DNA of 20,145 bases from a virus. Where the stretch lies: the IMG/VR virus record IMGVR_UViG_3300031862_000786, positions 1 to 20,145 of that record; one strand, given 5' to 3'. Shown here piece after piece: positions 3,034-14,183 of the stretch (position 1 is the first letter of the stretch; each line of letters begins with the position of its first letter). The position numbers and the translations under genes were made by a program. Below the pieces are notes generated by a model. It was not told the origin of the DNA. It made no database searches and saw only the letters and a program-made list of their open reading frames with translations.

Positions 3034-4656
3034 GTGGCTAACGTCCCTGATGCGTACTACCAATTCGTGATGCATTATGCACCTTGGTTCTATGTGATCA
3101 CAACTGCTATGGCTGCGGACCCGCCAGGTGGCCAGAAGAATGTCACGGTTGCGGATGGCACTAAGTTTAGCGCTGGCATGCCCTGTGAAATCAAAGACTC
3201 AGCTCATAGCGAATGGAATGAGGTCGATTCTATCGCTGGCAATGTTGTAACCATGAAAAACAATCTAGCCTATACTTATTATGTGGCCAAGGGCGGAACC
3301 GTAGATCATGGCGACAACAGTTTTGGAAAGGGCGCTTTTCCAGCTGCTTTCGGCATCGAATTTCTTTATGAGGCTTATTCTGCTACTCAATTCGTTTCTA
3401 AGCAAACTGAGATTCGCTCAAAAATAATTGACCTAGCCAATTGGCTTCTTACCCAGCAATGCACAGATCCAGCGAAGAAGGCTTATGGCGGGTTCAAATC
3501 CAGCGAATCTTCAACCCAATATTACAGCATCGATGCGGGTCGTGTTATTCCTGCATTGCTTAAGGCGTATGCTCTGATCGGCACTTCGGGCTATCTTGAT
3601 GCGGCTAAACTTGCGGGTTACACTTTTCTCTATACGATGCAACAGCAGCCGAGCATTCTGGGACTTCATGACAAGTACTATGGGGGCTTCGCAAACTACG
3701 TCTCGATTTCTGATACTTGGGACACCATCATGAGCATTGAGAATCTTTACTGCTTGATTGGGCTCAAGGCATTGGCTGACACGTACGATGTGGCTAATGC
3801 CTCTCAGTACAGTGTCATGATGGCAGATGCTGCAGGCTTCCTCAAGGTTGGGTTTGAGCAGCTCTATTTGTATTATCAGCCTCCGCCTTCGGGTTCTGGC
3901 GTCTGGTACCGGGTGGGAATCAATGATACCGAAGTTTACGATGATCCTATGAGCTTCGCTCTGCTGGGGCTATATGTGTATGAGGGCTGGAGTTTCACCT
4001 GTCAGCGCGTCTACAACTTCATTCAGTCGATTAGGGCTTCTGGGCAGTATCCTGCTTATTGGCCAGAGATCTGTTGGCCAGGCTATCTTGATGTGGTTAC
4101 GATGTTTCCAGCATGTGCGTACTATGATGCGATCACTACGGGAATCTTGTGGAAGATTAGGAAAGAGCGAGATCCTCCAAGCTTCAAGCTTGCCTACAAT
4201 GTCGTGAGCAAGTATAGTGACGAGTTTCTCTATTGGGGGCCAGTCTTCACGGATTATAGTCCGATCACGGCGCAAAAGGCGATGGCTAACGTCACGTGGT
4301 TGGCTCGCATGTTTCTTAATTATGAAGAGCCTTTGACTAGGTTCACGAAGATTTTGAATAGCAAAGGCGAGGCTGTCCTGCTTTATTCAGTCCGTCAAGC
4401 TATTGAGATTGTTTCCTATGGCGAGCCCTTGGACATTTTGGCCGTTGTTTCGCCGGTTAGGGTTGAAGAGGTTTTGCTTGAGGCTGGCTATCTCCTCAAC
4501 GACTATCTGGCGTTCTACACTTTTGTGCCGGTGCGTCACCACGATAAGCTGAGACGAAAGGGTGAGGAGTACGAGATTCAGAGCGTTCAGCCTTTCACTT
4601 ACGAGAACCAGCCGATTTATTTCAAATCAATCGCTCGGAGGTTGCTTGCCACATAA
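3034..4656 (+). CDS. Head-closure-like protein fused to an alpha/alpha-toroid glycosidase-like domain
   Basis: This 540-residue protein has GTG 3034 abutting the upstream TAG. Residues 1-95 include a small beta module (VTVADGTKFSAGMPCEIKD, then NVVTMKNNLAYTY), of a kind seen in virion proteins. Residues about 97-430 form a long helical array with the spacing and motifs of an (alpha/alpha)6 six-hairpin glycosidase-like toroid: YGGFKS, IDAGRVIPALLKAY, YYGGF, SIENLYCLIGLKAL, EVYDDPMSFALLGLYVYEGW and ITTGILWKI. Acidic D303/D304 and E300 are possible catalytic or ligand residues. Residues about 433-540, with RHHDKLRRKGEEYEIQSVQP followed by YFKSIARRLL, resemble the barrel of head-closure/stopper proteins (SPP1 gp16-like). 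The position between connector and tail terminator supports a head-closure role. Whether the toroid is active or only binds glycan is unknown. Confidence 0.65.
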   Translation: MANVPDAYYQFVMHYAPWFYVITTAMAADPPGGQKNVTVADGTKFSAGMPCEIKDSAHSEWNEVDSIAGNVVTMKNNLAYTYYVAKGGTVDHGDNSFGKGAFPAAFGIEFLYEAYSATQFVSKQTEIRSKIIDLANWLLTQQCTDPAKKAYGGFKSSESSTQYYSIDAGRVIPALLKAYALIGTSGYLDAAKLAGYTFLYTMQQQPSILGLHDKYYGGFANYVSISDTWDTIMSIENLYCLIGLKALADTYDVANASQYSVMMADAAGFLKVGFEQLYLYYQPPPSGSGVWYRVGINDTEVYDDPMSFALLGLYVYEGWSFTCQRVYNFIQSIRASGQYPAYWPEICWPGYLDVVTMFPACAYYDAITTGILWKIRKERDPPSFKLAYNVVSKYSDEFLYWGPVFTDYSPITAQKAMANVTWLARMFLNYEEPLTRFTKILNSKGEAVLLYSVRQAIEIVSYGEPLDILAVVSPVRVEEVLLEAGYLLNDYLAFYTFVPVRHHDKLRRKGEEYEIQSVQPFTYENQPIYFKSIARRLLAT

Positions 4657-5689: not shown

Positions 5690-6547
5690 ATGGTTGAGAC
5701 ATATGGAAGTGGAGAACAGCGATTCTATTACATCACTGAAACAGTATTTGGCCAGACGCCCGCAACCCCCGCAATGCTTGGGGCTCCAGCAGATTTGATT
5801 GACCCGGGGATAGACCCTGGTAACATTAAACTGCGGGGAGCTGGAAACTACGATCTTCAGGCAATCAAAAAGGGCTTGAGACAAGTCAGCTGTAAAGTGG
5901 GATATCCATTACCTAGCGATGCAGCTATTGACCTTCTCCAATGGGCAAAGGTAGAGACAAACAAGAGTCTAAGCATTGAATGTGTTTACTATAAGGGCAT
6001 TTTTGCGTCGGCTACGGACATTATCTCGCTACTTTTCAAGGGCATGAAAATTAACAAGGCAACCGTAGAATGTAGTATCGAAGACGTTATCAGGGCGAAT
6101 TTGGAGCTCGAAGGCCAAAACGTCACTGTTGGCACAGCGAAAATAGGGACTACCTATGCGGACTATGCCGGAGCCGTTGCATTCCATGAGAGTTATGTGA
6201 AGAAGGGCACTGTGACCTTGGATCGTGTGAGCGCTTGGAAATTTGTTGTGGAAAACAATGTCAAACGAGTTCCCGTGATTCGCACCACTGACGGATACCT
6301 AGCTAAGTACATACCCTTTAGACAGCGAAATCTCAGCGGAGAAGTGACCTTCGAGTTTGAAAGCAAGGAAGAGGCTGATGATATTCTCGCTGACACAGAG
6401 TTTGCTTTAGAGTTTGGGCTTGGAAGCACTAAAAAGGCTACTTTCACGGCTTGCAAGTGGGATAACGTAAGCATTCCGAGTCGCATGGAGGATCTGCTAT
6501 CTCTAAAGGCTGCTTTCACGGCGAAGGGACCGCTGGCCATAGTTTAA
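5690..6547 (+). CDS. Major tail tube protein
   Basis: This 285-residue protein starts at ATG 5690 behind AAAGGAGG. The N-terminus (ETYGSGEQRFYYITETVFGQTPATPAM) is typical of tail tube proteins that begin with a fluoride-free, strand-rich opening. The interior shows LKKGLRQVSCKVGYPLPS-like strand-loop patterns, VTLDRVSAWKFVVENNVKRV, YIPFRQRNLSGEVTFEFESKEEAD and a final SLKAAFTAKGPLAIV strand. RNLSGEVTFEFESKEEADDI is characteristic of phage tube proteins, where this beta-hairpin and helix pack around the tube. Placement between the tail terminator and the frameshifted assembly chaperone is the canonical order. There are no membrane segments. The assignment is confident from order and motif style, although no search was run. 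Confidence 0.85.
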   Translation: MVETYGSGEQRFYYITETVFGQTPATPAMLGAPADLIDPGIDPGNIKLRGAGNYDLQAIKKGLRQVSCKVGYPLPSDAAIDLLQWAKVETNKSLSIECVYYKGIFASATDIISLLFKGMKINKATVECSIEDVIRANLELEGQNVTVGTAKIGTTYADYAGAVAFHESYVKKGTVTLDRVSAWKFVVENNVKRVPVIRTTDGYLAKYIPFRQRNLSGEVTFEFESKEEADDILADTEFALEFGLGSTKKATFTACKWDNVSIPSRMEDLLSLKAAFTAKGPLAIV

Positions 6548-7023: not shown

Positions 7024-7100
7024 TTATAAATCAGATGGACAAGATGACAGAAGAGGAAGTTGAAAAGGCTAAGCGTGAGGCGAAAAGGCATGTCCGTTGA
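6559..7100 (+). CDS. Tail assembly chaperone gpGT-like fusion made by -1 frameshifting
   Basis: If ribosomes slip back one base at 6891-6897, translation passes from the zero frame (113 codons from 6559) into the frame ending at TGA 7098-7100, giving about 180 residues. The downstream part contains NEALTEFRLCKEFGWTPNQL and TVQQFLVIINQMDK followed by a charged EEEVEKAKREAKRH tail. That is the familiar gpT style: LCKEFGWTPxQL followed by a helical QxFL segment. This frame has no good start codon of its own in a useful place, and its ATG at 6864 lies within the upstream gene. In phages the fusion recruits tail tube subunits and the ratio of the two forms matters. The join is inferred from the sequence and not observed. 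Confidence 0.75.
6876..6897 (+). other. -1 ribosomal frameshift signal: T TTT TTA with upstream SD-like element
   Basis: The heptamer T TTT TTA (6891-6897) fits X XXY YYZ in the gpG frame (codons GCT TTT TTA). AAAGGAAG at 6876-6883 lies about 8-10 bases upstream, the spacing at which an internal Shine-Dalgarno stimulates -1 slippage in bacterial dnaX. I see no convincing downstream hairpin. Confidence 0.75.
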
Positions 7101-7461
7101 AATAACTTGTAATGTTGACGGAATCAAAGAGTTTCAGGCAGCCATGCAAAGGTTCGATGCTGCAATGCAGAACCAGGTACGCCGCTTTCTCATAACTTGG
7201 GCTGCTGACGTGAAAGCTGCTGCAATGCGAAATGCTCCTGTTAGGACCGGTCATCTTCGTAGTAGTATCTACGCCACCATTAAGGATTGGGTTGCTCAGA
7301 TAGGCGCCGAGGCTACGTACGCACTATTTGTTGAATTGGGTACTCGCCACATGCAAGCTCAGCCTTACCTTTGGCCTGCAATTCAGGAATATCTTCCAAG
7401 CCTTGAAATGAACATTTTCGGGGCCCTCGAACAAGCTAAAGCGGAGGCTGGTTTCCATTGA
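7090..7461 (+). CDS. HK97 gp10-like tail completion / minor structural protein
   Basis: The start is taken as ATG 7090. The in-frame TTG at 7060 would add ten basic residues and overlap the chaperone further. The 123-residue protein shows the HK97 gp10 pattern: an opening ITCNVDGIKEFQAAMQRFD, a helix containing LITWAADVKAAAMRNAPVRTGHLR (the APVRTGxLR core), SIYATIKDW, a strand ATYALFVELGTRHMQAQPYLWPA (FVExGTRxMxAQPYL), and a C-terminal helix. The family usually acts near the head-tail joint or tail end. Here it lies between the assembly chaperone and the tape measure rather than next to the connectors, an unusual but not unique placement. It ends in a TTGA overlap with the tape measure gene. 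Confidence 0.8.
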   Translation: MSVEITCNVDGIKEFQAAMQRFDAAMQNQVRRFLITWAADVKAAAMRNAPVRTGHLRSSIYATIKDWVAQIGAEATYALFVELGTRHMQAQPYLWPAIQEYLPSLEMNIFGALEQAKAEAGFH

Positions 7462-8387
7462 GCTTCAGGGAATTGGGCATAACCATTATCGCCCAGAACT
7501 TGGCAAGCGCAGAATTTTCCAAGGTTGCTTCTGACGCTGGAGCAATGGCAACTGAAGTTTCAAGTCAAAGAATGGCCATTAATGTGGAAAATTTTGCAAG
7601 TCCCGAAATCAGCCGAGTCGCCGAAGATGTCGCTCGAGTAAAGGGTGAAGTTGAAAGTCAACCGATAACGATTGCCTTTGCGCCGGTTGAAGTTCCAAGC
7701 ATTCCGCCAGTCGATGTTTCAAGCTTTGAAGGCGCCCAGGTTACTTTCGGCGAGGTAGGGGCTTCAGCAATTGAGATGGGCGAGAATGTTAAGGCTGCAG
7801 GCTCCAGTTTCACCGAGATGCAAATGCACGCTGAAGCAAGTACTGTGAGCTTGCGCACGGTTGCCGGCGGCATAAGGACTACTGCCATGATGGGCACAGA
7901 ACTTACAATGCTCGCCTCAGACTTCGGAATCGTGGATAAGGAGACAAGCAAATACATGCGCACCGTGATGGCCATCATAATGGTTGTTTCCACCGCAGCT
8001 CGAATGTACAGCTTTCTCACGTTGATGACGACTGGACACACGGCTGCTGTTGCCATTGAAGGAACAACTGAAACAGCTACAACAGGAGCCGTAACCGCTT
8101 CAGGCATAGCCCACACCATCAAAACGGCCATTACATGGGTTGCTGTTGCTGCCCAAAACGCCTTAAACATTAGCCACGCAACATTTCTCGCTTTAACCGG
8201 TGTTGGAATTGGTGTGATTATTGCTGCAGCAGCAGCCATGGCTTATTTCGCAAGTCAAATGAACGCCGCGACATCGAGTGTTCAGAGTTTCAATGAGGCA
8301 AGTGCTGAAACTCCTTCTAATGCTCGCGGTATTCAGCGTGCGGGCGAATCAGACCTTTATCGCCGAGGGGTTGAGGGCTCGCCTTGA
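7458..8387 (+). CDS. Short tape measure protein
   Basis: This 309-residue protein starts at TTG 7458 in a TTGA overlap with the gp10-like gene. Residues about 12-73 contain a tandem duplication of roughly 31 residues: AQNLASAEFSKVASDAGAMA, and again VENFASPEISRVAEDVARVK. Next come a Pro/Val-rich link and an amphipathic helical region. Two hydrophobic stretches follow, about residues 168-192 (TVMAIIMVVSTAARMYSFLT) and 245-266 (LTGVGIGVIIAAAAAMAYFA). Such stretches are typical of tape measures and may help genome passage across the membrane. The location between tail chaperone and tail hub confirms the role. At about 0.15 nm per residue the tail would be roughly 45 nm, short for a siphovirus. 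This length estimate follows the usual rule and is not measured. Confidence 0.8.
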   Translation: MSFRELGITIIAQNLASAEFSKVASDAGAMATEVSSQRMAINVENFASPEISRVAEDVARVKGEVESQPITIAFAPVEVPSIPPVDVSSFEGAQVTFGEVGASAIEMGENVKAAGSSFTEMQMHAEASTVSLRTVAGGIRTTAMMGTELTMLASDFGIVDKETSKYMRTVMAIIMVVSTAARMYSFLTLMTTGHTAAVAIEGTTETATTGAVTASGIAHTIKTAITWVAVAAQNALNISHATFLALTGVGIGVIIAAAAAMAYFASQMNAATSSVQSFNEASAETPSNARGIQRAGESDLYRRGVEGSP

Positions 8388-11251: not shown

Positions 11252-12732
11252 CTGTTTCTTGGAAAGGATTGCCTGATAGCCCACAATCTCTTTGGCGTGA
11301 AATTGAAAAGTTAAAGGGGCAACGTGAGAAGCCAAAACCTCTACCTATTCCAGAGGATTTTTCTGAGTTTTGTGAGAAATTGCTTAGGTTAAAACTTACG
11401 GATTATCAGTGTGAGGGTGCCAAACTAGTAGCAGAGAATGATTCTGTAGCCCTCCGATGGTCCAGACAAAGCGGCAAAACGCACATGGTCAGCGCTTGGC
11501 TGTTGCACTGTGCCCTTTTGCATCCTGGAGCTCAGATTGCCATTGTGGGACCTAGTTGGCGTCAAACGAAAATTCCGATTCGCAAGATTAATGGTTTCTT
11601 ATATAACCTGCCCCGGGGGGTTTACCGCAAACCTCAAGCTACTATGGTTTCTCTGAGGAATGGTAGCCTTATTCAGGCTTTTCCCTGTAACCCGGACACT
11701 ATTAGGGGATTTACGCTTGACGTTGTCTATGCTGACGAGTACAATTACATTCCAATGGATCAGGAACTCTATGATGCTATCGTGTTTACTCTCGCTACCA
11801 AAGCCCACGGAAAATTCATTTGCAGCAGCACGCCCGGCTCGACGGATAGCATGTTTTGGAAATTTTTCAATCGCCCACAATACAAGCATTTTGCCAAGAG
11901 TCATGTGACGTGGCAGCAGGCCCTCGAGCCTAATGGTCCTTTGACGAAGAGAAAAGTGGAGCAGTTGAAGGAGGAGTATTCGGATGATCCTTGGCGTTGG
12001 AAACGGGAGATGGAAGCTGAGTGGGCTGAGGACGAAGCCGTTTGGCTGCCCTTAAGCTTGATCACAAATTGTCAGAAAGCGGATTTGGAACTCTGGGATT
12101 CTGAGAGCATTCATAATGGTAGATTCTTTGGCGGCTTAGACTTTGGCAAGGAAAAAGACTATTCGGCTTTCGCGGTCGCGGAAGAGGTTGATAGCAAGTT
12201 TGTACTTCGCCATGTGAAAGTGTGGCCCTTGGAAACGAAATATGCTAGTGTCATCGGCTACGTTAAGACGGTAGCAGATCGTTGGCAGCAGTTTGAGAAG
12301 ATCCGATGTGATATAACTGGCGTTGGCAACTATATTGTTGAGGATATGATTAACGGTGGCATTGAAAATGTGGAAGGCGTCTCATTCACGCATCCTCGAA
12401 AGCAGGAAATGGCTAGCCTTCTCAAACAGCGCATGCTTAATGGCTCCTACGCCTATCCCTACACAGATATCCAAATTTCACCATCCAAGAAACTCAATTA
12501 TTCAGTCGAGTTGAACGTTGAACGATTCGAGTTGCGTAAGGATGGGACTTATCGCTTTTTCCATCCAGAAAACCAACATGATGATGTCTTTTGGGCTACT
12601 GCCCTAGCGCTTTATGCTACGGTTGAAATGGCGCCGGAACCATTTCTTGCAGTTATACCTCGTAGGGCTAACAAGTTGCAACGGTTGAGGGACAAGCTTT
12701 TGAAACGTAAATTTGAAGGTGCAGGAAGGTGA
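11248..12732 (+). CDS. terL: Terminase large subunit (packaging ATPase and nuclease)
   Basis: This 494-residue protein starts at ATG 11248 (ATGA overlap). The ATPase domain has a Walker A at residues 70-78 (RWSRQSGKT), a Walker B at 157-165 (LDVVYADEY, D163/E164) and a coupling motif SSTPGS at 193-198. The RNase H-like nuclease domain has GLDFGKEKDYSAF (D298), CDITGVGNYIVED (D355) and HDDVFWATALA (D445/D446). All the catalytic parts are therefore present. The enzyme drives viral DNA into preformed heads and cuts concatemers. The length is normal for the family. This is the firmest evidence that the block is a head-tailed virus. The gene overlaps the next by four bases (GTGA). Confidence 0.96.
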   Translation: MTVSWKGLPDSPQSLWREIEKLKGQREKPKPLPIPEDFSEFCEKLLRLKLTDYQCEGAKLVAENDSVALRWSRQSGKTHMVSAWLLHCALLHPGAQIAIVGPSWRQTKIPIRKINGFLYNLPRGVYRKPQATMVSLRNGSLIQAFPCNPDTIRGFTLDVVYADEYNYIPMDQELYDAIVFTLATKAHGKFICSSTPGSTDSMFWKFFNRPQYKHFAKSHVTWQQALEPNGPLTKRKVEQLKEEYSDDPWRWKREMEAEWAEDEAVWLPLSLITNCQKADLELWDSESIHNGRFFGGLDFGKEKDYSAFAVAEEVDSKFVLRHVKVWPLETKYASVIGYVKTVADRWQQFEKIRCDITGVGNYIVEDMINGGIENVEGVSFTHPRKQEMASLLKQRMLNGSYAYPYTDIQISPSKKLNYSVELNVERFELRKDGTYRFFHPENQHDDVFWATALALYATVEMAPEPFLAVIPRRANKLQRLRDKLLKRKFEGAGR

Positions 12733-14183
12733 GAAGGCGAGAGTTTTTCCGCATACGTCAATACGCCCGCCGGTATGACCGTGAAACAGCGAAATTCATA
12801 ATTAACCTAGCTTACGAAACTGCAGCTCCAGAGCCAACGGAGCGAGTGGTTTCAGTTGCTGAAGGCTTCGGTCTTGGGCTTGACCAATGGGAGAAGTTCG
12901 TGGTTTACGATAATGTTGAGTTGAAAATAGGGCCAACGGACATCACACTCATAACTGGCGATTCAGGCTCGGGCAAAAGTGTTCTACTCAAAGCCTTAGA
13001 GAAGGACATTAAACAAGACTTGGGCTTGAGCTACATTAACATTAATGATATTTTACCAATGATTGGTAAACCGCTAATCGAAACTGTTGGCGAAACTCTT
13101 GAGGAAGGTTTAGAGCTTCTCAGCAGAGTAGGCTTAAACGATGCTTTCCTTTTCCTTCGCAGTTATGAGCAGCTTAGTGATGGACAGAAATACCGCTATA
13201 AAATAGCGAAAATGATGGAGAGTAAGGCTCAATTTTGGATAATGGATGAAGCTATGGCTACGCTTGACAGGGACACAGCTAAAATCGTGGCTTACAACCT
13301 TCAGAAACTCGCAAGACAGCAAGGCAAAGCAGTTTTGGCAGCCACAACACACACGGATCTCCTGGGGGATCTGAACCCTTCGGTACATATTCATAAGCGA
13401 TTTGGAAAAGAAATCTGTGTAGTGTACTATACAAATCAGCTAGCCAAAGAATGCAGCCTCGTTAAGGAAATGCATGTAGAGAAAGGCTCAACTGAGGATT
13501 GGCGTAAGCTTGCGGGCTTCCATTACAGAAGCCACAAAATAGTGGCGCCTCGCAAAATCTTCTGCCTCAAACGGAAAGAAGAGTTGTGTGGTGTCATTGT
13601 TTATTGTTATCCGCCACCAACAGCTTTTGGGCGTAGGCTTGTCTTGCCAAAGCTGTCTATGAAGGAGCTGAACAAAGAGCTGAGCATTATAAGCCGTGTG
13701 GTTGTGCATCCCAAATACCGCACCATAGGTTTAGGCGTGAAGCTTCTGCGTGAAACTTTGGCTAAGGCTGGCACGCCTTACGTGGAAATGCCCGCTGTCA
13801 TGGCGAAATATAATCCGTTCGGAGAGAAGGCTGGAATGAGGAAAATAGCTGAGCAGCCACCGCCTAAAGAAGCCTTAGCCATTGCAGAGATACTGCAGCA
13901 GCTTGGCTTTAACATTCAACTATTGGGGAGCGAGAAATACGTTTTAAACAAGCTTCAAACCCTGAGCGATGAAGACATAGACGAGGTTAGAGAGGCGTTC
14001 ATCAAACATTGTCATACACGGTTCATGAAATACTTCTTTCCGCATCTGGTTTTTGGACATAAGAAAGCTTACGTTGAGGAGATAAAGAAACTAAGCCTTG
14101 AAAGGCTTGCACGTTTAATTAAAGTGTGTGGCTTTCTTCTGCAGACGAAGGTTTATCTTTTCTGGAAAAACTTGAATGTATAA
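12729..14183 (+). CDS. Soluble ABC ATPase fused to GNAT acetyltransferase (COG2401-like)
   Basis: This 484-residue protein starts at GTG 12729 in a GTGA overlap with the large terminase. The ABC domain (about 35-225) has Walker A GDSGSGKS (77-84), signature LSDGQKYR (149-156), Walker B FWIMDEAMATLD (169-180) and an H-loop histidine (ATTHTD, H208). No transmembrane part exists, so it is not a transporter. The C-terminal part (about 225-400) has a GNAT acetyl-CoA motif, SRVVVHPKYRTIGLGVKLLR (322-341), followed by PYVEMPAVMAKYNPFGEKAGM. A helical extension fills 400-484. The domain pair matches the COG2401 family of uncertain function. Given its neighbour, roles in packaging, DNA modification (as with the GNAT-fold Mom of phage Mu) or countering host defence are possible, and none is shown. 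It is the last viral gene before the convergent host gene. Confidence 0.85.
   Translation: MRRREFFRIRQYARRYDRETAKFIINLAYETAAPEPTERVVSVAEGFGLGLDQWEKFVVYDNVELKIGPTDITLITGDSGSGKSVLLKALEKDIKQDLGLSYININDILPMIGKPLIETVGETLEEGLELLSRVGLNDAFLFLRSYEQLSDGQKYRYKIAKMMESKAQFWIMDEAMATLDRDTAKIVAYNLQKLARQQGKAVLAATTHTDLLGDLNPSVHIHKRFGKEICVVYYTNQLAKECSLVKEMHVEKGSTEDWRKLAGFHYRSHKIVAPRKIFCLKRKEELCGVIVYCYPPPTAFGRRLVLPKLSMKELNKELSIISRVVVHPKYRTIGLGVKLLRETLAKAGTPYVEMPAVMAKYNPFGEKAGMRKIAEQPPPKEALAIAEILQQLGFNIQLLGSEKYVLNKLQTLSDEDIDEVREAFIKHCHTRFMKYFFPHLVFGHKKAYVEEIKKLSLERLARLIKVCGFLLQTKVYLFWKNLNV

Follow-up and report, generated by a model that had tools for sequence, protein, structure and literature searches.

Few parts of tailed viruses are as small and as uniform as their head-closure proteins. 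In the stretch of DNA analysed here, a 20,145-base virus record from IMG/VR (the window), the head-closure domain of a 540-aa protein follows a fold known from sugar enzymes, which raises the question of what such a domain does at the neck of a virion. The reading we favour, with moderate confidence, is that this protein forms a six-copy, neck-mounted, carbohydrate-active collar. All matches in an 84,980-species genome collection were Bathyarchaeota assemblies, and the window virus therefore very probably belongs to the Bathyarchaeota host group. Bathyarchaeota are deep-sediment archaea.

The open reading frame (Table 1) starts with GTG right after the upstream stop codon, with GGGGAGGG shortly upstream of the GTG, and overlaps the start of the next gene. 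More than 100 full-length relatives were found, at 53-91% identity, and an AlphaFold2 (AF2) model of the 540-aa protein, built with 50 relatives, reached pLDDT 93.2 and pTM 0.92. These relatives and this model, together with a dN/dS of ~0.1, rule out a chance reading frame. An assembly or annotation artefact was ruled out, since over 100 contigs and several Bathyarchaeota genome assemblies share the fusion. An internal start yielding a separate stopper was also rejected: ATG417 is kept in 92% of sequences, but 43 of 44 lack a ribosome-binding site there (1/44 with a site, compared to 26/36 at the gene start). The fused form is therefore the product. Frameshifted or truncated copies (L084, L095, L225) were excluded, as were stoppers that look bare but lie at contig ends (L127, L241).

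Table 1. Features of the neck region, in window positions.
Feature	Positions	Strand	Basis or remark
Adaptor candidate, 146 aa	2593..3033	+	Position
Toroid-stopper fusion gene, 540 aa	3034..4656	+	Single open frame; AF2 model; >100 relatives
N-terminal helix (6-15), residues 1-23	3034..3102	+	Pairs with last helix and closes toroid (model); kept in relatives without 24-92
Inserted beta module, residues 24-92, after first toroid helix	3103..3309	+	Resembles K1-lyase 'Rider' domain, weak matches
(α/α)6 toroid hairpins, residues 93-432	3310..4329	+	AF2 helices; VIA Z 23-29
D167..R170 at N-terminus of helix from 165	3532..3543	+	79/79 non-redundant toroids
Y302-D303-D304, N-terminus of helix from 303	3937..3945	+	76/79, 79/79, 79/79
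W348-P-G-Y351-x-D353 loop	4075..4092	+	W348, G350, Y351 invariant; D353 74/79
Y363-Y364-D365, N-terminus of helix from 366	4120..4128	+	79/79 each
Stopper / head-closure domain, residues 433-540	4330..4653	+	Profile and fold matches; bare homologues at same locus
Tail-terminator candidate, 329 aa	4656..5645	+	Position between stopper and tube; without confident family match
Terminator-candidate insert, residues ~113-286, ~174 aa	4992..5513	+	Weak likeness to phrog_5793 and a phosphodiesterase PHROG
Tail tube protein	5690..6547	+	PF18906 Phage_tube_2, E=4.9e-16; census marker

The first-pass annotation had likened the C-terminal 108 residues to a stopper barrel, and both profile and fold matches bear this out. 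The model has a helix at 436-444 and a beta-barrel at 446-536; among BFVD viral models, the barrel matched 'head-tail joining', 'closure knob' and 'SPP1 head-tail adaptor' proteins (Foldseek E ~1e-5 to 5e-4). PHROG 939 matched the domain in 11 of 26 relatives (best 3.6e-9), PHROG 161 (head closure Hc1) gave its best value, 1.7e-5, in a bare homologue, and PF05521 (Phage_HCP) matched the bare relative L346 at E=0.0054; the window domain alone reached 0.0066 against head-closure PHROG profiles. Folded alone, it gave a low-confidence model (pLDDT 65.8) whose top PDB matches were mostly phage neck proteins, at E 0.013 and weaker (Foldseek); Z scores reached 5.7, a level that unrelated folds matched. 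Barrel-and-helix fold, family profile and gene order all point to head closure, the flanking identities being given by position. Like the siphovirus stoppers SPP1 gp16 and lambda gpFII (PHROG 939 / 161, PF05521), the C-terminal ~108 aa combine a helix with a beta-barrel, match the same profiles and lie between adaptor and terminator/tube, both candidates here. Unlike those stoppers, which have ~100-125 aa and at most a short N-terminal helix or tail, the protein carries ~430 extra N-terminal residues.

Candidate adaptor, toroid-stopper, terminator candidate and tube follow one another in conserved order in the loci listed. The location proposed earlier, between connector and tail terminator, thus stands as gene order; adaptor and terminator themselves are placed by position, without a confident family match. 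Adaptor relatives gave sub-threshold PHROG matches only (phrog_541 head-tail adaptor, E=0.18; phrog_302, E=0.073). The insert in the terminator candidate matched phrog_5793 at E=1.1e-4. It is absent in L093, L187, L201 and all six bare-stopper loci (see below), and short terminator candidates of 152-157 aa occur in L093, L187, L201 and L223. The terminator candidate is also a hotspot of stacked domain insertions: in L022:7527-9065, L065:7359-8801 and L080:3779-5221 a further ~140-160-aa domain is nested inside the insert.

Upstream of the stopper, the suggested (α/α)6 toroid was recovered by the AF2 model and by VIA-align comparison of residues 1-438 with solved structures. Helices span residues 101-141, 165-208, 235-275, 303-331, 366-393 and 417-428; as read from helix order in the model, helix 417-428 and the N-terminal helix 6-15 complete the ring. 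The toroid was taken as starting at residue 1 because this N-terminal helix closes it. The domain proposed at 97-430 accordingly comprises residues 1-23 plus 93-432, and the beta module inserted at 24-92 had been overlooked. Structure prediction with fold comparison, the kind of check suggested at the outset, found both the toroid and the head-closure fold; neither of the contrary outcomes named beforehand, a non-toroid fold or a C-terminal part without head-closure matches, occurred.

Fifty toroid proteins, nearly all carbohydrate enzymes, matched the toroid at Z 23-29, in a list outside which other (α/α) toroid families may fall. One match, 3ren, gave Z 28.6 with rmsd 3.2 over 304 aligned residues; cellobiose/AGE epimerases and YihS scored 24-28, unsaturated glucuronyl hydrolases (GH88) ~25 and GH76 ~24. 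The predicted structure thus holds the complete (α/α)6 toroid of the six-hairpin glycosidase-like superfamily, as judged by VIA. This predicted fold is secure; no single enzyme family can be assigned, the Z scores being tied across different chemistries. C5-epim_C (PF06662) matched the window protein at 14.1 bits (E 0.034; Pfam cut-off 23.3) and weakly matched 40 of 50 relatives (best E 3.4e-5). The window protein fell below the cut-off of every glycosidase family, sequence searches against solved structures gave sub-significant matches only, and no C5-epim_C or GH88 proteins were found in the host phylum at E 1e-10. Like the six-hairpin enzymes (AGE epimerases, GH88, GH76, alpha-amylase CPF_2247 and the C5-epimerase C-terminal domain), the neck toroid has the full (α/α)6 fold over ~300-340 aligned residues, with a weak sequence signal to C5-epim_C. 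Unlike them, it shows 6-12% identity, lies below family cut-offs and sits in a virion neck protein.

The beta module gave E=0.0016 and 19.2 bits against PF24149 (K1-lyase Rider) when searched alone, below the Pfam cut-off of 27; 29 of 50 relatives matched this family, all weakly (best 8e-4). Approximately half of the relatives are without the module: it is missing from L089-L094 and was seen in 78 of 155 fused blocks among those listed, with 5'-truncated reading frames counted as lacking it. It recurs in the tail-tip proteins of L045, L062, L039, L079 and L223. Because of this patchy presence and its reappearance in tail-tip proteins, residues 24-92 behave as a mobile module.

Sixteen residues never varied in 79 non-redundant toroids: D167, R170, W291, R293, D303, D304, E317, Y342, W348, Y351, Y363, Y364, D365, R376, D380 and W401. 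The acidic EVYDD motif lies at residues 300-304 as first annotated; its conserved part is limited to Y302, D303 and D304, and E300 is present in 55/79. In the model, D167, D303/D304 and D365 stand at the N-termini of three helices, each after a long strand-bearing loop. Active sites of (α/α)6 toroids lie on the side of those loops and helix N-termini. The placement of the conserved acids on the presumed active-site side is suggestive only: the presumed funnel face held no significant excess of invariant acids as a class (Fisher p ~0.35), and invariant aromatics were weakly enriched there (p = 0.05).

Mean pairwise identity across 25 loci was 0.62 for the toroid, 0.57 for the tail tip, 0.56 for the tube, 0.52 for the stopper, 0.48 for the terminator core and 0.43 for the gp10-like protein, a comparison that may favour conserved toroids somewhat, as many loci were fetched via the toroid itself. 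The beta module was the sole tail-block domain compared that equalled the toroid in these loci. Median dN/dS was ~0.10 in the toroid against 0.14 in the stopper, and codons varied silently at the invariant Asp, Tyr and Arg of the toroid. Judged by these sequence comparisons, the toroid is under strong selection, and its conservation above stopper, tube and tail tip is easier to reconcile with a target or chemistry that stays fixed than with a whisker that varies and sets host range.

These data bear on whether the toroid has kept its pocket and lost catalysis, merely holding the virion to surface glycans as a lectin would. Such a reading is compatible with the scores below every enzyme-family cut-off, with a weak excess of invariant Trp and Tyr on the side presumed to form the funnel, and with the precedent of neck-mounted binding modules that bind host cells (PMC6669499). 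It is nevertheless unlikely: the invariant acids at three helix N-termini exceed the needs of binding, and binding modules are usually strain-variable, whereas the toroid varies less than tail tip or tube do. Catalysis by the toroid is a fair possibility.

To place the toroid among related viruses, we took a census by pattern-based retrieval, drawn mainly on the tail-tube gene and thus independent of the toroid. At least 161 distinct neck blocks were found, comprising at least 155 toroid-stopper fusions and at least six bare stoppers of 110-125 aa at the same locus position as the fusion. In the alignment, bare stoppers begin opposite residue ~435 of the window protein. This shared position makes the toroid an add-on that decorates a stopper able to work by itself. 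The bare viruses formed one clade on the tube tree (97/89), which is unrooted; the lack of a toroid may be ancestral or may have arisen once, by loss or by replacement. Whichever its origin, the stopper works without the toroid, and the six bare-stopper viruses among the blocks listed indicate that the toroid is dispensable in that background.

One bare-stopper genome (G067, locus L223) was recovered by a stopper-profile search of 300 genomes, with a 125-aa stopper reading frame lacking the toroid (E 9e-17). The locus is syntenic and runs from an HK97-type capsid protein through candidate adaptor, bare stopper, terminator candidate (157 aa) and tube to gp10-like protein, tail tip and terminase; its tube shares 60% identity with that of the window. 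A beta-propeller-like gene follows the tail tip (L223:14652-15680). A tail-tip beta-propeller as toroid substitute in bare-neck viruses was ruled out, since propeller homologues also occur in toroid-bearing loci. Between the capsid and adaptor genes lie an NAD-dependent sugar epimerase and a family 2 glycosyltransferase (L223:5084-6070 (-) and L223:6219-7235).

That a sister virus encodes these two sugar enzymes would suit a toroid that acts in the producing cell, for example on virion-protein glycans, and rides on the stopper as a passenger. We regard this as highly improbable: it does not readily explain why such an enzyme should be fused to a structural protein present in six copies, and the loci examined yielded no free toroid gene that was intact.

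Among the blocks listed, the terminator-candidate insert accompanied 148 of 155 fused stoppers and none of the six bare ones, as if insert and toroid touched. Toroid viruses without the insert were scattered over several places of the tube tree. The co-occurrence invites the view that a recruited enzyme fold, needing no ligand, braces the neck or joins head to tail, and the collar of phage Milano has been proposed to add mechanical robustness (PMC10491603). We consider this quite unlikely, as the toroid forms without the insert at several tube-tree places, so that the two parts are separable, and as charged and aromatic invariants lie in long loops and at helix N-termini, on the side that bears the active sites in toroids of this kind, whereas conservation in a mere brace would be expected chiefly in the core and at interfaces.

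The collar we favour would be assembled as follows. Once the DNA is packaged, the portal channel would be closed by a ring of six stopper copies. In R4C (PMC10276861) and SPP1 (PMC9701221), the N-terminal helix or tail of the stopper docks on the adaptor. With the stopper N-terminus so docked outside the channel, the toroids, being fused ahead of the docking helix, would lie on the exterior of the hexameric ring, six of them making up the collar, because six domains of ~340 residues are too large for the channel. The terminator-candidate inserts would add a second layer below. The neck of the particle is probably encircled by six units that bind or cut sugars.

Handling of a conserved host surface glycan is the most likely role of this collar. 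It would bind, and possibly cleave, isomerise or eliminate, a conserved archaeal cell-surface glycan, and during tail-tip engagement this could help the particle to keep hold of the coat or get through it. A more specific version, in which six active carbohydrate enzymes process a conserved Bathyarchaeota surface glycan at entry, within a two-layer collar that includes the terminator inserts and is absent in the sister viruses, is put forward tentatively, at somewhat less than even chances.

A sugar domain at the neck had been called unusual in the first-pass annotation, which holds in part. Sugar-related modules have been described at this site in lactococcal phages, whose neck-passage protein, a separate gene product, bears carbohydrate-binding modules together with beta-helix domains (PMC6669499). 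Neither the open literature searched, where absence is not proven, nor a set of 50,697 phage records yielded a head-closure protein with a glycosidase-fold toroid fused to it. The predicted collar is functionally like the neck passage structure of lactococcal 936 and TP901-1 in placing carbohydrate modules at the neck. Unlike the lactococcal protein, which is separate, has ~500-900 aa, a BppU-like N-terminus and coiled-coil fibres (PMC6669499), the toroid is fused to the stopper and has no fibre; neither a BppU-like N-terminal beta-sandwich nor a coiled-coil stalk is present in the AF2 model. The proposed collar also resembles phi29 gp12, T4 whiskers, XM1 spikes and the Milano collar as an appendage or shell at the neck. 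The pre-neck appendage gp12 has been reported to degrade teichoic acid (in a title cited in PMC6116005), and a domain resembling glycan-binding ones is present in the Milano collar (PMC10491603). Those four are separate appendage proteins, whereas the toroid is part of the head-closure protein. The main text of two Bathyarchaeia (pro)virus papers (PMC10848311, PMC11705971) mentions neither 'neck' nor 'head closure', and the sole epimerase named in the text of one of them is a UDP-glucose 4-epimerase gene.

Here a head-closure protein has acquired an enzyme-fold domain of 340 residues, which most members of a large group of uncultured archaeal viruses retain, and sugar-handling machinery appears to be placed on a structural ring instead of on fibres. 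The fusion offers an expressible protein for asking how Bathyarchaeota viruses meet the cell surface, with the bare-stopper sister clade as a natural control without the toroid.

Several further observations were made in these loci. In the window, an HK97 gp10-like (Neck1 / tail-completion) gene lies after the tube, not before it (7060-7461), an unusual siphovirus order. The next gene (7458-8387), named for its tape-measure position, has just 309 aa and no family match; its counterparts have ~186-191 aa in L003 (L003:10368-10940) and L007. The tail would be very short if this gene encodes the tape measure. Just upstream of the neck genes, the gene at 1743-2501 contains repeated 'ITDAVSLADxV'-like units (phrog_12240, unknown function), and right after the terminase gene, at 12729-14183, an ABC-type ATPase is fused to a GNAT acetyltransferase-like half (phrog_293, phrog_886). 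In L090:1686-3578 the toroid-stopper is joined to the acetyltransferase half of this ABC gene, and in L191:1426-2466 the first part of the toroid is in frame with a tail-tip C-terminus; each is probably a deletion in a decaying provirus. Single Bathyarchaeota-type assemblies (G002, G192, G239, G257) hold ~4-6 toroid-bearing loci apiece, and proviruses seem to accumulate in them.
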